A stretch of DNA of 64,000 nucleotides from Sipunculus nudus (taxonomy: Eukaryota; Annelida; Sipuncula; Golfingiida; Sipunculidae), in assembly GCA_026874595.1 (NCBI GenBank), contig CM049308.1, positions 48,491,327 through 48,555,326 on the forward strand, read 5' to 3'. The stretch's first letter is position 1; the number at the start of each line of letters is the position of its first letter. Shown piece after piece: positions 36,060 through 60,000 of this stretch. The notes under the pieces were generated by a model. It did no database searches. It had not been told where the DNA came from and saw only the letters and a program-made list of their open reading frames with translations. A program made the position numbers and the translations under genes.

Positions 36060-37345
36060 GAGTGGCAAGGGGAAATAGAGTGAGGTATGTTGCATATTAG
36101 CATGAATGTCAGCAGCCTAAATGTGTATGTAGGTTGTGCCACCTACCACAAATCCAGAAAGCTGTTCAAGTTGTATACATATGCAAAATTTTAGGCAGAA
36201 AAGTCAAACCACTACATGTATATGAGTGATTTTAGCCCACAGCAGACAAACAGACAGACGCTGTGCAAAATGGTTGCAGGTGGCCCCTTCAGTTTTGTGT
36301 ATGATAAAGACCAAGTGAGATCTAAACACATACACAATTTTGGCCCAATCGGTCAAATGGTTCCTGAGATATGAGCTTGGATGTGTGCAGTGCTAACTAG
36401 AATTTAGGTGGCGCCACCTGTCATAAAATCACAAAAGCTGTCCAGGATGTATAAACCTGCAAAATTTTAGGCAATTATGTCAAACCACTACAGAGAAATG
36501 AGTGATTTTAGGCCTCGGCAGACAAACAGACAGACGCTGTGCAAAATGTGCAAAAAAGGATGCAGGTGGCACCACCAGTTTTGTGTATGATAAAAAGCTA
36601 TGTGAGATCTATACACATGCAAAATTTTGGCCAAAGTGATTTTAACCCAAGGCAGATGAACAGATGGACACTGTGCAAACATGGTTACAGATGGCGCCAC
36701 CATTTTTTGTGTATGTTATAAAGCTATCCAAGGGCTACATTTGTATTAATTTTATTTCCTGATCGGTCAAACGGTTCCTGAGGTATGAGCTTGGATGTCA
36801 GAAGCGTGAACGTGAATGTAGGTGGCGCCACCTGTCATAAAATCAAGAAAGCTATCCAGGATGTATACGCATGCCGAATTTCAGGTGAATAAGTCAATTC
36901 ACTGCAGAGATATGAGTGATTTTTAACCCAAGGCAGATGAACAGATTGACACTGTGCAAACATGGTTACAGGTGGCGCCACCATTTTTGTGTATGTTATA
37001 AAGCTATCCAAGGGCTACATTTTATATAAATTTTTATTTCCTGATCGGTCAAACGGTTTCTGAGATATGAGCTTGGATGTCTGCAGCGTGAACATGAATG
37101 TAGGTGGCGCCACCTGTCATAAAATCAAGAAAGCTCTCCAGGATGTATACGCATGCTGAATTTCAGGTGAATTAGTCAATTCACTGCAGAGATATGAGTG
37201 ATTTTAACCCAAGGCAGATGAACAGATGGACACTGTGCAAACATGGTTACAGGTGGCGCCACCATTTTTTGTGTATGTTATAAAGCTGTCCAAGGGCTAC
37301 ATTTGTATAAATTTTATTTCCTGATCGGTCAAACGGTTCCCGAGA
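36060..37345 (+). repeat. Array of about 290-bp units with GGTGGCGCCACC
   Basis: About four and a half units. Each holds two copies of the perfect 12-bp palindrome GGTGGCGCCACC (or a near variant), one after AATGTAGGT and one after TTGCAGGT, and the shared phrases GATATGAGCTTGGATGTC and GGATGTATA. The same unit forms the larger array at 57190-60110. Open frames of 60-70 codons inside it are incidental. Confidence 0.9.
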
Positions 37346-37539
37346 TTTGAGGGTTTATGTGTGGATACAGACGCACAAATGGATGCTGGGCAGAGAGGAA
37401 AGGTCAGAGGTCAACGCAGATTGGTTAGGCACCAGTTCACATGTGACCCTATAATCGGTGTTAGGTTTCAGAAAAATGGTGTTGTAGTTATTGAGATACT
37501 GCAGTTTTTGTATCAAATTTTCCATTTTTCTGGGGGGTA

Positions 37540-39390
37540 TTTTGAAGCCATACAGCTTAAAGAATATGGGTAACAGAGACCTTATTTCAGGTTTCCATGG
37601 AGACTTTTCATGGGTCTCCCTGTGTGTCAAGAATGAAGATTCTATGTCCAGTTTTTATGATTTGTGCCCTGTTAACAGATGTTCATATCTTAAAAGGTCT
37701 CAAAAATAGAGAAAAAATTCGTAAAAAAAACCCAACAAATACAGGTGGCGCCATTAGTCTGCAGATACTGATGAAACTCTCCATGATCAATATCCATGCA
37801 AACAATTATGGTGATCTCTGCATTAATTGTTCAGATACTTCTGCTTTTGTATCAAATTTTTCATTATTCTGGGGGGGGGGGGGGGGGGGGGTAATTGGGA
37901 GCCCCCCACAGCTTAAAGTATATGGGTAACAGAGACCTTATTTTAGGTTTCCATGGAGACTTTTCATGGACCTCTCAGTGTGTCAAGAATGAAGATTCTA
38001 GGTCCAGTCTTTATGATTTGTGCCCTGTTAACAGCTGTTCACATTTTTAAAGGTCTCAAAAATAGAGAAAACAATTCGTAAAAATTGAAAAATACAGGTG
38101 GCGCCACCAGTCTGCAGAAACTGATGAAACATCTCATGATCAATATGTATGCCAAAAATCATGACCATCAGTGATGTAGTTAATGATATATTGAAGTTTT
38201 TGTATGAAATTTTTTACTATTCTGGGGGGTACTTTGTGGCCCCATAGCTTGAAGGATATGGGTAACAGAGACCTAATTTCTGGTTTCCATGGAGACTTTT
38301 CATAGGTCTCTCAGTGTGTTGAGAATGAAGATTCTAGGTCCAGTCGTCATGATTTGTGCCACGTTAACAGATTACAGCATCCTTAAAGGTCTCAAAAATA
38401 CAGGAAAAAATAGTAAAAAAAATCGAATACAGGTGGCGCCACCAGTCTGCAGGAACTGATGGAACATCTCATGATCAATATGTATGCCAAAAATCATGAC
38501 CATCAGTGATGTAGTTATTGAGACATTGAAGTTTTTTTATGAAATTTTTTACTATTCTGGGGGGTACTTTGGGGCCCCATAGCTCGAAGGATATGGGTAA
38601 CAGAGACCTAATTTCTGGTTTCCAGGAGACTTTACATAGTTCTCTCAGTGTGTCGAGAATGAAGATTCTAGGTCCAGTTGTTATGATTTGTGTCAAGTTA
38701 ATAGATGACAGCATCCTAAAAGGTCTCAAAAATACAGGAAAAAATCGTTAAAAAAAATCGAACAATACAGGTGGCGCCACCAGTCTGCAGGAACTGATGG
38801 AACAGCTCATGATCAATATGTATGCCAAAAATCATGACCATCAGTGATGTAGTTATTGAGACATTGAAGTTTTTTTTAAGAAATTTTTGACTATTCTGGG
38901 GGGTACTTAGGGGCCCCATAGCTCGAAGGATACGGGTAACAGAGACCTAATTTTTGGTTTCCATGGAGACTTTTCACAGTTCTCTCAGTGTGTGGAGAAA
39001 GAAGATTCTAGGTCCAGTCGTTACGATTTGTGCCAAGTTAACAGATGACAGCATCCTAAAAGGTCTCAAAAACAGAGGAAAAAATCGTAAAAAATCGAAC
39101 AATACAGGTGGCGCCACCAGTCTGCAGGAACTGATGGAACATCTCATGATCAATATGTATGCCAAAAATCATGACCATCAATCAAGTAGTTAATGAGATA
39201 TTGAAGTTTTTGTATGAAATTTTTGACTTCTCTGGGGGGTACTTTGGGGCACCATAGCTCAAAGGATATGGGTAACAGAGACCTAATTTCTGGTTTTTTC
39301 ATGGACCTCCCAGAATCCCAAGTTACAAGGTTCTAGGTCCAGCGGTTACGATTTGTGCTTGGTTAACAGATGGACAGACGGACAGATGGA
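37540..39390 (+). repeat. Array of about 335-bp units with GGTGGCGCCACC
   Basis: Five to six units sharing GATATGGGTAACAGAGACCT, GAAGATTCTAGGTCCAG and CAGGTGGCGCCACCAGTCTG. A 21-base poly-G tract (37871-37891) replaces the usual CTGGGGGGTA in one unit. A diverged relative of this unit lies in an ERCC2 intron at 50290-51180. Confidence 0.9.
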
Positions 39391-47384: not shown

Positions 47385-47477
47385 TCACGTCTGATGTGTG
47401 CGTTCCTCGATCTTTTTCTGAATGTCCTCAGATTCTAGTTGCTCTAGAGTCAACAGGGAGAGGCCAAGCTGGTCCTC
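47385..47477 (-). CDS. ERCC2: ERCC2/XPD last coding exon
   Basis: Thirty codons plus TGA (47385-47387). The peptide begins EDQLGLSLLTLEQLESED, nearly identical to the human XPD C-terminus from residue 731. It has the same length to the end (human 760), and the lysine at the position of the human Lys751 polymorphism is kept. The last residues (IEERTHQT) differ from human. The acceptor is GATGTTTTGCAG just after 47477 on the plus strand, phase 0. XPD is the 5'-to-3' DNA helicase of TFIIH, used in nucleotide excision repair and held in an inactive form during transcription initiation. The C-terminal tail contacts the p44 subunit region in TFIIH structures. It converges with the plus-strand gene ending at 44961. 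Confidence 0.95.
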   Translation of the reverse strand, partial: EDQLGLSLLTLEQLESEDIQKKIEERTHQT

Positions 47478-47959: not shown

Positions 47960-50001
47960 TTGTGCTTGAGATGACATACCTTCTTGAAGATGACTTACCC
48001 TGATGAAGATGACTTACCCTGCTGAAGTTGACTTACCCTGATGAAGATGACTTACCCTGATGAAGCTGATGAAGAGAACTTACCCTGATGAAGATGACTT
48101 ACCCTGATGAAGATGACTTACCCTGATGAAGATGACTTACCCTGATGAAGATGACTTACCCTGATGAAGATGACCAACTCTGTTAAAGATGACCAACTCT
48201 GTTAAAGATGACCAACTCTGTTACAGATGCCTTACTTTGTTGAGGATGACTTACTCTGTTGATGATGACTTACTCTGTTACAGATGCCTTACTTTGTTGA
48301 GGATGACTTACTCTGTTGATGATGACTTACTCTGTTACAGATGCCTTACTTTGTTGATGATGACTTACTCTGTTAAAGATGACTTACTTTGTTGATGATG
48401 ACTTACTCTGTTAAAGATGACTAACTTTGTTGATGATGACTTACTCTGTTAAAGATGACTTACTTTGTTGATGATGACTTACTCTGTTACAGATGCCTTA
48501 CTTTGTTGACAATGACTTACTATGTACAGATGACTTACTTTGTTGAGGATGACTTACTCTGTTGATGATGACTTACTCTGTTACAGATGACTTACTTTGT
48601 TGATGATGACTTACTCTGTTACAGATGACTTACTTTGTTGATGATGACTTACTCTGTTAAAGATGAATTACTTTGTTGATGATGACTTACTCTGTCAAAC
48701 ATGACTTACTTTGTTGATGATGACTTGCTCTGTTAAAGATGACTTACTTTGTTGATGATGACTTACTCTGTTACAGATGCCTTACTTTGTTGACAATGAC
48801 TTACTCTGTTACAGATGACTTACTTTGTTGAGGATGACTAACTCTGTTGATGATGACTTACTCTGTTACAGATGACTTACTTTGTTGATGATGACTTACT
48901 CTGTTACAGATGACTTACTTTGTTGATCATGACTTACTCTGTTAAAGATGAATTACTTTGTTGATGATGACTTACTCTGTTGAACATGACTTACTTTGTT
49001 GATGATGACTTACTCTGTTAAAGATGACTTACTTTGTTGATGATGACTTACTATGTTACAGATGCCTTACTTTGTTGACAATGACTTACTCTGTTACAGA
49101 TGACTTACTTTGTTGAGGATGACTTACTCTGTTGATGATGACTTACTCTGTTACAGATGACTTACTCTGTTGACGATGACTTACTCTGTTACAGATGCCT
49201 TACTTTGTTGATGATGACTTACTCTGTTAAAGATGCCTTACTTTGTTGATGATGACTTACTCTGTTACAGATGCCTTACTTTGTTGACAATGACTTACTC
49301 TGTTACAGATGACTTACTTTGTTGAGGATGACTTACTCTGTTGATGATGACTTACTCTGTTACAGATGACTTACTTTGTTGACGATGACTTACTCTGTTA
49401 CAGATTCCTTACTTTGTTGATGATGACTTACTCTGTTAAAGATGACTTACTTTGTTGATGATGACTTACTCTGTTACAGATGCCTTACTTTGTTGACAAT
49501 GACTTACTCTGTTACAGATGACTTACTTTGTTGACGATTACTTACTCTGTTGATGATGACTTACTCTGTTACAGATGCCTTACTATGTTGATGATGACTT
49601 ACTCTGTTACAGATGACTTACTTTGTTGACGATGACTTACTCTGTTACAGATGACTTACTTTGTTGACAATGACTTGCTCTGTTACAGATGACTTACTTT
49701 GTTTACAATGACTTACTCTGTTACAGATGACTTACTTTGTTTACAATGACTTACTCTGTTACAGATGACTTACTTTGTTGACGATGGCTTACTCTGTTAC
49801 AGATGCCTTACTTTGTTGATGATGACTTACTCTGTTACAGATGCCTTACTTTGTTGATGATGACTTACTCTGTTACAGATGACTTACTTTGTTGATGATG
49901 ACTTACTCTGTTACAGATGACTTACTTTGTTGAAAATGACTTACTCTGTTACAGATGACTTACTTTGTTGACGAAGACTTACTCTGTTACAGATGACTTA
50001 C
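47960..50001 (-). repeat. 19/38-bp array of 5' splice-site copies in ERCC2 intron
   Basis: About 2 kb of 19-bp units, mostly paired into a 38-bp composite. On the minus (transcribed) strand almost every unit contains GTAAGTCATC. By hand I count about 80 GTAAGT, the ideal 5' splice-site core. The array abuts the true donor of the exon at 50002-50145 with no gap. At its far end (47990-48180) the units read CAGGGTAAGTCATC, and the 20 bases at 48008-48027 (GATGACTTACCCTGCTGAAG, plus strand) are identical to the exon-intron junction at 49992-50011. So the unit descends from the splice junction. The rest of the intron (47478-47959) is unremarkable. Confidence 0.95.
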
Positions 50002-50145
50002 CCTGCTGAAGGGCTGGGCCATGCTCCTGAGGAATCTCTTCGCAAGCTGGACAGCTTCATCCGTGGACAAGTTACACACAACATCAGGAAGGTGCACCTG
50101 GATCCACTTGGGAAGTTTACCTCGTTTATCTGAACGACCAAACCT
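50002..50145 (-). CDS. ERCC2: ERCC2/XPD penultimate coding exon
   Basis: 144 bp, exactly 48 codons, phase 0 at both ends. Acceptor TCGTCTTCCAG, donor AGG then GTAAGT. The peptide starts [16 protein letters not shown] and ends [15 protein letters not shown], matching human XPD residues 683-730 with the same length. Arg683 and Arg722, both sites of human disease mutations, are present. It forms part of the second helicase domain and the C-terminal extension. If the true donor is skipped for any downstream copy in the array, the reading continues V-S-H-L and stops at TAA, so wrong donor choice would truncate the protein. Confidence 0.97.
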
Positions 50146-51358: not shown

Positions 51359-51502
51359 CTTGTCTGCGAAGCACATGATACCATAGTCCGTCTTTCCTCT
51401 CATTGCTCGCCCTACACACTGGGCTGCGTGTCTCATGGCGTCAAACGTCAGGAAGTCATTCTCCCGGATATGAAACTGCTCTCTCAGGTACTCTAACCGG
51501 GC
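51359..51502 (-). CDS. ERCC2: ERCC2/XPD exon with helicase motif VI
   Basis: 144 bp, 48 codons, phase 0 at both ends. Acceptor CCTGTATTCCAG, donor AAG then GTATGT. The peptide begins [20 protein letters not shown] and contains [16 protein letters not shown], helicase motif VI of the XPD (SF2) family, whose arginines contact ATP. It corresponds to human residues 635-682 with the same length; Asp681 is kept. Met in GRAMR and MC in GIMCF replace human Ile and MV-type residues, conservative changes. Its frame on the opposite strand means nothing. Confidence 0.97.
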
Positions 51503-51623: not shown

Positions 51624-52841
51624 ATGCCCCCGCCTGGGGCAAATTAGAAAAATTTGTAAAATTTTGAAAAATTTTTAAGTTCAGGAGGTGTCGTATGGTC
51701 AAAAGTAGGTCAACAAGGGCAAAATGCAAAATAAATCTGTAACGGGTCATTATCAAGCAACACCCCAAAAATCATGCCAGTATATATGCAGGCACTGTGA
51801 AAAAAAAAGTCCATACATGTGCATTTTCCATAAAAATTTCTGTCTTTCATGAAATTTTCTATGTTTAGGAGCCATAAAACAATCAAAAGTACATATGCAT
51901 TTGTTATGAAAATTTCTATTTTTCATGAAACTTTCTATGTTCAGGAGCAGTCAAATGGTCAAAAGTAGGTCAACTGGGACAAAACAAGAACTCGATCTGT
52001 AACTGGTCATTATCTGCCTACACACCAAAAATCAGGCCCGTATCTGCAGGCACTGTGAAAAAAGTCCATACATGTGCACTTTTTTATGAAATTTTCTATG
52101 TTAGAGCACTGTCAAATGGTCAGAATTAGGTCAACTGGGACAAAACTTGAACTCGATCTGTAACTGGTCATTATCTGCCGACACACCAAAAATCAGGCCA
52201 ATATCTGCAGGCATTGCGAAAAAAAATCCGTATATGTGTATTTGTCATGAAATTTCATATTTTTGATGAAATTTTCTATGTTCAGGAGCCGTAAAACAGT
52301 CAAAAGTAGGTCAACCGGGACGAAACCTGAACTCGATCTGTAAATGGTCTATATCTGCCCACACACCAAAAATCAGGTCAATATCTGCAGGCATTGCGTA
52401 AAAAGGTCCGCACATGTGTATCTGTCATGAATATTTCTATTTTTCATGAAATTTTCTAAGTTAAGGAGGCATAAAACGTTCAAAAGTAGGTCAACCGGGA
52501 CGTAACGCAAACTCGATCTGTAACTGGTTATTAGCTGCCCACACACAAAAAATCAGGCCAATATCTGCAGGCATTGCGAAAAAAAGTCTGTACATGTGTA
52601 TTTGTCATGAAATTTCTATTTTTTATGAAATTTTCTAAGTTTAGGAGCCGTAAAACGGTCAAAAGTAGGTCAACCAGGACGAAACGCGAACTCGATCTGT
52701 AACTGGTCTATATCTGCCCACACACCAAAAATCAGGCCAATATCTGCAGGCATTGCGAAAAAAAGTCCATACAACTGTTTGATTTCGGAAGGACGGACAT
52801 GGGTAAAACTATATGCCCTGGCCACTTTGTGGCGGGGGCAT
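51624..52841. mobile_element. Element with ATGCCCCCGCC inverted ends and core repeats
   Basis: Left end ATGCCCCCGCC (51624-51634) and right end GGCGGGGGCAT (52831-52841) are perfect reverse complements. In between are six units of roughly 160-180 bp around AACTCGATCTGTAACTGGTC and CAATATCTGCAGGCATTGCG, then a GGAAGGACGGACATGG phrase near the right end. No open frame, so it is non-autonomous. It sits inside an ERCC2 intron. A target-site duplication is not clear (A-rich flanks). Confidence 0.8.
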
Positions 52842-53145: not shown

Positions 53146-53900
<755 letters not shown>

Positions 53901-55759: not shown

Positions 55760-56165
55760 AAAATGACACAACGTCCATAGTGGTGGTCTGAAAAACATAA
55801 TGACACAACGTCCATAGTGGTAGTCGGTAAAACATAATGACATAACGTCCATAGTGGTGGTCTGTAAAAAAATGACATAATGTCCATACTTTTGATCTGT
55901 AAAACATTAGGATACAATGTCCATAATTGTGCTCTAGTAAACATTGTGACACAATGGCCATAGTGGTGGTCTGTAAAACATAATGACACAATGTCTATAG
56001 TGGTTGTCTGTAAAATATAATAACACAACTTCCATAGTGGTGATCTGTAAAACATATATATAAAGTCCCTAGTAGTGATCGAGAAAACATATAAACATAA
56101 CGTCCATAGTGGTGATCTATGAAAACAATGACATGATGTTCATAGTGGTGATCTATATGACAAAC
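55760..56165 (-). repeat. 37-bp array made from an ERCC2 3' splice site
   Basis: Eleven copies of a 37-bp unit. On the minus strand a unit reads TTTTACAG then ACCACCACTATGGACGTTGT then GTCATTATG. That is eight bases of intron and the first 29 or so bases of the HHYGR exon. The exon sequence ATTATGTTT and the intron TTTTACAG are joined through shared T bases. About half of the copies keep ACAG; others have decayed. The array lies in the ERCC2 intron upstream of the true acceptor. Confidence 0.92.
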
Positions 56166-57010: not shown

Positions 57011-60000
57011 AAACAAGGCCTACAGGCCTAATGCGAACCTGTGCAAAGTTTGGGAGTATGAATGGAGGTTTATTTTTTAAATGTAATATTGATCCTCTTA
57101 AGTCCTGCATATCTACCTTAGTCATTATGATTTCAGCAAAATGGACATTTCGGACCTGCAAGTTTCAGACTAGGGCATTTTAAAACTAGTATATGGGTAG
57201 TCGACAAGCGACTGTGTATCCACAGAAATCAGAGTAGGCAGGTGAATTGAGGCATGGATTATGGGCAAGGGGAATAGAGTGAGGTGTGATGCATATTAGC
57301 ATGGATGTCTGTAGCATAAATGTGAATGTAGGTGGTGCCACCTGTCTTAAAATCGAGAAAATTGTCCAGGATGTATAAACCTGCAAAATTTCAGGTGGAT
57401 AAGTCAAACAAGTGCTGAGATATGAGTGATTTTATCCCAAGGCAGATGAACAGATGGAGGGTGTTCATAAGTGGTTGCAGGTGGCACCACCAGTTTTGCT
57501 TATGATGAAGAGCTATGCAAGATCTATACACAAGCAAAATTTCGGCCCAATCGGTCAAACGTTTCACGAGATATGAGCTTGGATGTCTGCAGAGTAAACT
57601 TGAATGTAGGTGGCGCCACCTGTCAAAATTAAGAAAGTTGTCCAGGATGTATAAACCTGCAAAATTTCAGGTGGATAAGTCAAACTACTTCTGAGATATG
57701 AGTGATTTTATTCCAAGGCAGATGAACAGATGGACGCTGTGCATAAGTGTTTGCAGGTGGCGCCACCAGTTTTGCCTATGATGAAGAGCTATTTCAGATC
57801 TATACACATGCAAAATTTTGGCCAAATCAGTCAAACAGTTCCCAATAATGAGCTTGGATGTCTGCAGAGTAAAAGTGAATGTAGGTGGCGCAACCTGTCA
57901 TAAATTGAGAAAGCTGTCCAGGATGTATAAACATGCAAAATTTCAGGTGGAAAAGTCAAACCACTCCTGAGATATGAGTGATATCATCCCAATGCAGATG
58001 AACAGATGGACGCTGTGCAAAAATGGTTGCATGTGGTGCCACCAGTTTTGCCTATGATGAAGAGCTATGTGAGATCTATACACATGCAAAATTTTGGCCC
58101 AATCTGTCGAACGGTTTCCCAGATATGAGCTTGAATGTTTGCAGAGTAAACTTGAATGTGTGGTGCCACCTGTCATAAATCCAGAAAGCTGTCCAGGATG
58201 TATAAATCTGCAAAATTTCAGGTGGATAAGTTAAACCACTTCTGAGATATGAGTGATTTTATCCAAAGGCAGATGAACAGATGGACGCTGTGCATAAGTG
58301 TTTGCAGGTGGCGCCACCAGTTTTGCCTATGATGAAGAGCTATGTGAGATCTATACACATGCAAAATTTTGGCCCAATCAGTCAAGAGGTTCCAGAGATA
58401 TGATCTTGGATGTCTGCAGAGTAAACATGAAAGTAGGTGGCGCCACCTGTAATAAAATCGAGAAAGCTGTCCAGGATGTATAAACCTGCAAAATTTAAGG
58501 TGGATAAATCAAACCACTTCTGAGATATGAGTGATTTTATCCCATGGCAGATGAACAGATGGGTGCTGTGCATTAATGGTTGCAGGTGGCGCCACCAGTT
58601 TTGCCTATGATGAAAAGCTATGTGATATCTATACACAAGCAAAATTTTGGCCCAATCGGTCAAACAGTTCACGAGATATGAGCATGGACGTCTGCAGAGT
58701 AAACGTGAATGTAGGTGGCGCCACCTGTCATAAATCGAGAAAGCTGTCCAGGATGTATAAACATGCAAAATTTCAGGTGGATAAGTCAAACCACTCCTGA
58801 GATATGAGTGATATTATCCCAATGCAGATAAACAGATGGACACTGTGCAAAAATGGTTGCAAGTGGTGCCACCAGTTTTGCCTATGATGAAGAGCTATGT
58901 GAGATCTATACACATGCAAAATTTTGGCCCAATCGGTCGAACGGTTCCCCAAGATATGAGCTTGGATGTCTCCAGAGTAAACTTGAATGTAGGTGGTGCC
59001 ACCTGTCATAAATCCAGAAAGCTGTCCAGGATGTATACACCTGCAAAATTTCAGGTGGATAAGTCAAACCACTGCTGGGATATGAGTGATTTTATCCAAA
59101 GGCAGATGAACAGATGGACGCTGTGCATAAGTGTTTGCAGGTGGCGCCACCAGTTTTGCCTATGATGAAGAGCTATGTGAGATCTATACACATGCAACAT
59201 TTTGGCCCAATTGGTCAAATGGTTTCTGAGATATGGGCTTGGATGTCTGCAGAGTAAATGTGAATGTAGGTGGCGGCACCTGTCATAAAATCGAGAAAGC
59301 TGTCCAGGATGTATAAACATGCAAAATTTCAGGTGGATAAGTCAAACCACTCCTGAGATATGAGTGATATTATCCCAATGCAGATAAACAGATGGACGCT
59401 GTGCAAAAATGGTTGCAAGTGGTGCCACCAGTTTTGCCCATGATGAAGAGCTATGTGAGATCTATTCACATGCAGAATTTTGGCCCAATCGGTCGAACGG
59501 TTCCCCAAGATATGAGCTTGGATGTCTCCAGAGTAAACTTGAATGTAGGTGGTGCCACCTGTCATAAATCCAGAAAGCTGTCCAGGATGTATACACCTGC
59601 AAAATTTCAGGTGGATGTCAAACCACTAATGGGATATGAGTGATTTTATCCAAAGGCAGATGAACAGATGGGCGCTGTGCATAAGTGTTTGCAGGTGGCG
59701 CCACCAGTTTTGCCTATGATGAAGAGCTATGTGAGATCTATACACATGCAACATTTTGGCCCAATTGGTCAAATGGTTCCTGAGATATGGGCTTGGATGT
59801 CTGCAGAGTAAATGTGAATGTAGGTGGCGGCACCTGTCATAAATCGAGAAAGCTGTCCAGGATGTATAAACCTGCAAAATTTCAGGTAGATAAGTTAAAC
59901 CACTGCTGAGATATGAGTGATATTATCCAAAGGCAGATGAACAGATGGACACGGTGCAAAAATGGTTGCAGGTGGCCCCACCTTTTTTAGTGTATGTTAT

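Follow-up and report, generated by a model that had tools for sequence, protein, structure and literature searches.

A 19-bp minisatellite that probably descends from a 5′ splice junction occupies most of the last intron of ERCC2 in an animal genome

The stretch of DNA analyzed here (the window; 64,000 bases, C3:48491327-48555326) comes from an animal genome assembled into 153 contigs (1.43 Gb) and carries exons of ERCC2, the gene encoding XPD, on its minus strand. The last three of these exons matched solved XPD chains with an E value of 2e-59. Using the window together with neighboring stretches, with human XPD as the query, we placed 19 ERCC2 exons that cover human residues 83-760 with small gaps and extend over about 83 kb, from coordinate 130112 to 47385. 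All ERCC2 coordinates are given in the frame of the window, with numbers above 64000 lying outside it. No match to residues 1-82 was obtained in the window and the neighboring stretches searched. The exons that matter most here are all on the minus strand and encode residues 612-634 (53194..53264, 23 residues), 635-682 (51359..51502), 683-730 (the penultimate exon, 50002..50145, ending in FSR with the donor AGG|GTAAGT), and 731-760 followed by the stop codon (the last exon, 47385..47477, preceded by the acceptor TTTTGCAG). The exon frames are open and align to XPD, and both the true junction and the coding frame are intact. A Pfam scan of 10 of the 118 open frames listed for the window gave none above the curated cut-off, and an Rfam search of the window returned no matches.

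The last ERCC2 intron is 2524 bases long, of which 2033 are occupied by a 19-bp array (47961..50001, minus strand) comprising 107 units, all in register with the true donor. Tandem Repeats Finder delimited the same array as 47969-50011, with a period of 19 and 107.1 copies. Between successive units on the minus strand, the spacing was 19 bases in 104 of 106 cases, the two exceptions being one of 18 and one of 28. Units begin with GT in 105 of 107 cases, with GTAAG in 97, with GTAAGT in 82, and with GTAAGG in 14. Across the whole window, GTAAGT occurs 90 times on the minus strand, 82 of them inside the array, and 10 times on the plus strand. The initial annotation had described an ERCC2 intron following the penultimate exon and built from a 19-base repeat, and both the exon (residues 683-730 matched to XPD) and the array (107 units, almost uniformly spaced) were confirmed. 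It had also counted about 80 perfect 5′ splice sites; the number holds, but the word “perfect” does not, since 72 of the 82 GTAAGT units carry A instead of G at position -1. The complete AGG|GTAAGT is present in 10 of the 107 units, namely, the true donor and nine far-end units. The true donor, AGG|GTAAGTCATC, and the first unit lie at 49982..50001 (minus strand), and reading through this donor yields VSHL and a stop, the same V-S-H-L extension that the annotation had predicted.

The array is not uniform along its length. The first 94 units mostly alternate between two unit types (identity of 0.90 at lag 2 and 0.78 at lag 1). Beyond unit 94 come three GTTGGT units and then a far-end block of GTAAGTCATCTTCATCAGG (units 98-106, 47980..48159, minus strand), whose members have the junction form TTCA(T/G)CAGG|GTAAGTCATC. 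A 20-mer spanning the true junction (49992-50011) recurs exactly at 48008-48027, as had been claimed, and its 21-base extension occurs exactly twice in the 1.43-Gb assembly, namely, at these two positions. This longer identity may be due to the chance change of a single base, and we therefore place no weight on it. The donor of the preceding exon (51361-51349) and the last, most diverged unit (47982-47970) also share 13 identical bases, AAGGTATGTCATC, on the minus strand.

The far-end units consist of 9 exonic and 10 intronic bases. The 9 bases before their donors are mostly TTCATCAGG and, once, TTCAGCAGG; the latter is the true exon end, which encodes F-S-R within the conserved stretch AQPFSR (AQPFHR in human). 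Compared with the last 9 exonic bases, far-end units, in exact register, agreed at 7 to 9 of the 9 positions (mean 7.8), versus a mean of 2.2 for random 9-mers of the window, only 0.035% of which reached at least 8. Near units matched at about 5.2 of 9 positions. Since the exon is conserved with human XPD, the exon is the source of the copies. Counting against a junction origin, the shared exonic piece is only 9 bases long, and 3 of these fall within the donor consensus.

Longer coding pieces were found in three other ERCC2 arrays. The first, which lies inside the window but is absent from the initial annotation, is an acceptor array of 11 copies of a 37-bp unit (55762..56155, minus strand), which derives from the exon for residues 612-634: the unit, TTTTACAG followed by ACCACCACTATGGACGTTGTGTCATTATG, corresponds to the acceptor junction of that exon together with coding bases for HHYGRCVIM. 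An extra copy of this acceptor junction (53265..53305, minus strand) stands directly before the exon and is separated from the array by about 2.4 kb of other sequence. The copied acceptor, 33 bases upstream of the true one (53194-53305), is in frame, and its use would insert 11 residues. The other two are donor arrays outside the window. One, of eight 44-bp units, follows the exon for residues 551-585 (73701-73352) and repeats 30 exonic bases encoding TSLALYNYQQ; the other, of 27 units of 41-43 bp, follows the exon for residues 317-372 (110509-109365), with an exonic part that corresponds to VCIERKPLR. Junction-derived arrays are thus present in 4 of the 18 introns between the ERCC2 exons found. 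A 33-bp array of about 149 copies (78693-73785, outside the window) is in register with ATCAG|GGTAT, the acceptor of the exon for residues 551-585, and probably represents a fifth, with about five exonic bases shared. It stops 24 bases from that acceptor. Because it adjoins this acceptor, the exon for residues 551-585 has tandem arrays on both sides. A further ERCC2 array (99326-99643, also outside the window) begins about 10 bases downstream of the exon for residues 494-515, within the following intron, and has no visible exonic sequence. The proposal of the initial annotation that the minisatellite arose from the splice junction itself is borne out by the far-end register, the conserved exon, and the three sister arrays with their longer coding pieces; judged from these alignments, descent of the 19-bp array from the 5′ splice junction is well supported.

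To place these arrays in the context of the genome, the assembly was searched for three CAGGTAAGT motifs at spacings of 5-35 bases, and the result was compared with that for the reversed motif. Triple matches numbered 256 genome-wide versus 133 for the reversed motif. Among the matches listed for the two motifs (the first 100 places of each), over the territory common to both (C1 to C9:11.65 Mb), grouping by hand gave 18 donor-motif arrays, one of them in ERCC2, versus 4 reversed ones (one-sided binomial P = 0.007). Given that single motifs numbered 15,332 versus 12,946 reversed, the base rate does not account for this difference. We viewed 11 of the 17 arrays outside ERCC2; judged by eye, the first unit came after an exon-like open stretch in six, and in the other five such a stretch was absent before the first unit or beyond judging. 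One of the six was an exon of an ABCC2-like transporter (E = 4.7e-8 to solved ABCC2) and another was weakly PH-like (E = 0.016, under the Pfam cut-off). None of the remaining four matched Pfam, and the one of them that was compared with solved structures matched none of these either. In the CCT chaperonin genes, judged from Tandem Repeats Finder arrays, one donor-junction array was found in seven regions holding 32 Pfam-matched exons by hand count; two further multi-exon CCT loci, on C1 and C12, lie outside these seven. The CCT4 array consists of 16 copies of 112 bp and starts with the last 9 exonic bases. At this locus (C3:50270221-50272009), the true donor is AAG|GTGAGA and all 15 scored copies are AAG|GTAAGA.

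Few other minisatellites of the window have a donor-like unit. A 64-bp array of 10 copies (3-663) has a unit with an acceptor-like TTTCTGTGACACAG. Arrays with long units of about 180-340 bp are located at 36635-37351, 37904-39296, 52080-52773, and 57293-59982; similar unit lengths appear again in arrays of the CCT regions, and these long-unit arrays are perhaps tandem mobile elements. Uninterrupted frames of the groEL and COX1 families were also encountered on C60, C61, C62, C66, C72, C73, C74, C75, C89, and C99, marking bacterial DNA in the assembly. Among the best 80 matches to the C61 groEL, identity does not exceed 69%. Besides bacterial contigs, the search for cytochrome oxidase yielded a single weak chromosomal match and no mitochondrial sequence. 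Genes that by eye appear to encode a cbb3-type oxidase (C123:5001-15000) point to a second bacterium.

We then estimated donor strength from the computed pairing with the 5′ end of U1. The true ERCC2 donor reached -9.7 kcal/mol, versus -6.1 kcal/mol for AGAGTAAGT and -5.3 kcal/mol for AAAGTAAGT; with A at position -1, pairing is computed at about -5 to -6 kcal/mol instead of -9.7. Among 105 decoys scored in the 19-bp array, 96 were weaker than the true donor, nine were equal, and none was stronger, the nine equal ones all being 1.8 kb or more downstream. All 25 decoys scored in the 27-copy ERCC2 array were weaker than the true site. However, six of the seven decoys of the 44-bp ERCC2 array equal their true site, and the 15 decoys of CCT4 are practically equal to theirs as well (-9.5 versus -9.6). 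The ABCC2-like array, identified through a perfect-donor pattern, has 20 equal and five slightly stronger decoys among 39. These three arrays count against the explanation preferred below. This scoring disregards the first “site” of the PH-like exon, a spurious match far upstream, and most of the nine rows at C1:102.0, which are spurious too. Weakening of decoys as a general rule was rejected on the basis of the 44-bp ERCC2, CCT4, and ABCC2-like arrays. Since decoys match the true site in several arrays, weak decoys are not the general reason for which such arrays are tolerated. Each of the three ERCC2 donor arrays brings an in-frame stop already in its first unit when the true donor is read through.

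Taken together, we consider it likely that the 19-bp array is a junction minisatellite of the kind called mirages in amphioxus (see below), most probably a tolerated by-product, with the first donor presumably being the one used. A stretch across the 5′ splice site, comprising 9 exonic and 10 intronic bases, would have been duplicated in tandem, and the copies would have extended into the intron through ordinary minisatellite turnover. The exon side would have stayed fixed because it encodes conserved XPD. Copies near the exon would have diverged, lost the G at -1, and acquired their two-unit alternation, with the far-end block retaining the junction form. As for splicing, the first donor may be favored because it is joined to the exon, transcribed first, supported by exon definition, and better paired with U1 than the near copies. 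Splicing at the first decoy would append V-S-H-L followed by a stop codon, and from general knowledge of splicing, misspliced RNA would be expected to be removed by nonsense-mediated decay. The consequences suggested in the initial annotation, which remain hypothetical, were competition at the true donor, sequestration of U1, protection from early polyadenylation, and tolerance through the strength of exon definition.

Alternatively, the array could be functional and under selection: U1-binding copies might define the last intron, suppress premature polyadenylation, or provide spare donors, or unproductive ERCC2 mRNA might act as a brake. The 81 additional GTAAGT on the transcribed strand, the presence of arrays at several ERCC2 junctions, and the stops brought in by decoys would fit such a role. 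However, the exon-proximal copies no longer have G at -1, and the decoys of one ERCC2 array are all weaker than the true site, unlike what a selected U1 platform would show. Acceptor arrays, moreover, do not bind U1, and like arrays at unrelated genes suggest a general mutational process. Selection for function is therefore an unlikely explanation. It is still less probable that an unrelated intron minisatellite resembles the donor by chance or through common donor-like motifs. Minisatellites abound in the genome (of 400 random 45-mers taken from the gene, 127 have at least two nearby copies), and the common exonic piece spans 9 bases, 3 of them in the donor consensus; yet chance resemblance would leave the exact register, the far-end match at 7 to 9 of 9 positions, and the coding sequence in the three sister arrays of ERCC2 unexplained.

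That the repeats record the origin of the intron itself, whether it was made through tandem duplication or through a mobile element that generates introns, we regard as highly improbable. The intron lies between XPD residues 730 and 731, where the human XPD gene presumably has an intron too (codon 730/731), and its 3′ end consists of 490 unrelated bases with an acceptor of its own, features that speak against this view even though duplication of AG|GT has been proposed as a route to new introns (PMC3087553, PMC2812944). Least probable of all is an assembly artifact that inflated or invented the array: tandem arrays are prone to assembly errors and the evidence comes from a single assembly, but the units vary in an orderly arrangement, the far-end block being distinct, and like arrays occur at several loci.

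Whether junctions are preferred sites of such arrays was addressed in ERCC2 by two tests. The rotation test revealed no excess of arrays at ERCC2 junctions, either by arrays (3 versus 1.9 expected, P = 0.26) or by junctions with arrays (3 versus 4.3 expected), a result that counts against our preferred explanation. In a placement test that kept arrays out of exons, which was devised after the rotation test, with a tolerance chosen by the analyst and for a single gene chosen because of the finding, 5 of 14 ERCC2 arrays were at most 30 bases from an exon boundary versus 0.35 expected (0 of 3000 simulations). With a tolerance of 15 bases, the count was 2 of 14 (P = 0.012; P = 0.17 without the 19-bp array). 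Selection against transposon insertions near exons may simply let arrays there persist longer; birth of minisatellites seeded at junctions is also possible. We tentatively put forward, as a conceivable and rather uncertain extension, that splice junctions throughout the genome of this lineage are favored birthplaces of minisatellites, with introns again and again starting or ending in tens to hundreds of copies of a splice site, some of them as strong as the true one. If this were the case, position and exon definition would have to govern donor choice, and such arrays would offer a natural, length-variable test bed for donor choice outside the cephalochordates.

With more than 100 copies of one junction, four junctions affected in a single essential gene (a TFIIH helicase), and further cases in other genes, each array can be seen as a natural experiment on how the spliceosome selects a single donor from near-identical copies. 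Since the junction has been copied about a hundred times, the splicing machinery must choose among look-alikes. The arrays also raise the questions of whether minisatellites arise especially often at splice junctions and whether new introns can originate in this way.

The closest known systems are the mirages of amphioxus, described as minisatellite-like tandem duplications of exon/intron boundaries in Adh3 and in the globins BflGb6 and BflGb9 (PMC3087553), with troponin C also named among them (PMC3902484); the initial annotation had not connected the array with this known kind of structure. In amphioxus, mirages are reported to occur at 5′ and 3′ boundaries and to vary in length, at Adh3 somatically too, and RT-PCR suggested regular splicing past them (PMC3087553, PMC3902484). 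As in amphioxus, the units of the ERCC2 arrays span the boundary and carry AG/GT, donors and acceptors are both affected, and an intact true junction adjoins (PMC3087553, PMC3902484). At the level of sequence, the 19-bp array thus has the features of a mirage: boundary units, splice signals, and an intact junction. In contrast to BflGb6, for which 3 and 6 copies are given in two haplotypes, the ERCC2 array has 107 copies, and unlike the amphioxus cases as described, four junctions of one gene are affected in a host that is probably not a cephalochordate. At 1.43 Gb, the assembly is far larger than the roughly 0.5 Gb of Branchiostoma, and a muscle-myosin exon came closest to squid and scallop chains, with human cardiac myosin not far behind; a search for a molluscan haemocyanin domain gave no match, which says little about the host.

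Human segmental duplications provide a second comparison. Their variable internal tandem repeats at exon-intron boundaries have units of about 30 bp and 4 copies on average and, in recent paralogs, mostly lengthen exons or make new introns (PMC2812944). Both there and in ERCC2, boundary minisatellites add extra or cryptic splice sites, whereas the ERCC2 arrays are long, confined to introns, and located in an old single gene (PMC2812944). The Rogers model, as cited in PMC3087553, likewise invokes tandem duplication across AG|GT, there as a means of intron gain, whereas in ERCC2 an existing junction was multiplied. TERT VNTR6-1, an intronic repeat with a 38-bp unit that alters splicing, resembles the ERCC2 array as a long intronic minisatellite in an important gene but differs in that its effect on splicing has been shown and that a junction origin is not stated in the opening of the abstract (PMC11830802). 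An intron minisatellite of abalone is not said, in the available part of its description, to span a junction (PMC6905558). Titles and abstracts in the open-access literature searched revealed no multiplied splice junctions beyond the amphioxus and human-paralog papers. Mirages are a known but little-studied kind of repeat, of which this genome seems to contain many examples; new in ERCC2 are the number of copies and their recurrence at several junctions of a single gene, and probably also a host outside the cephalochordates.
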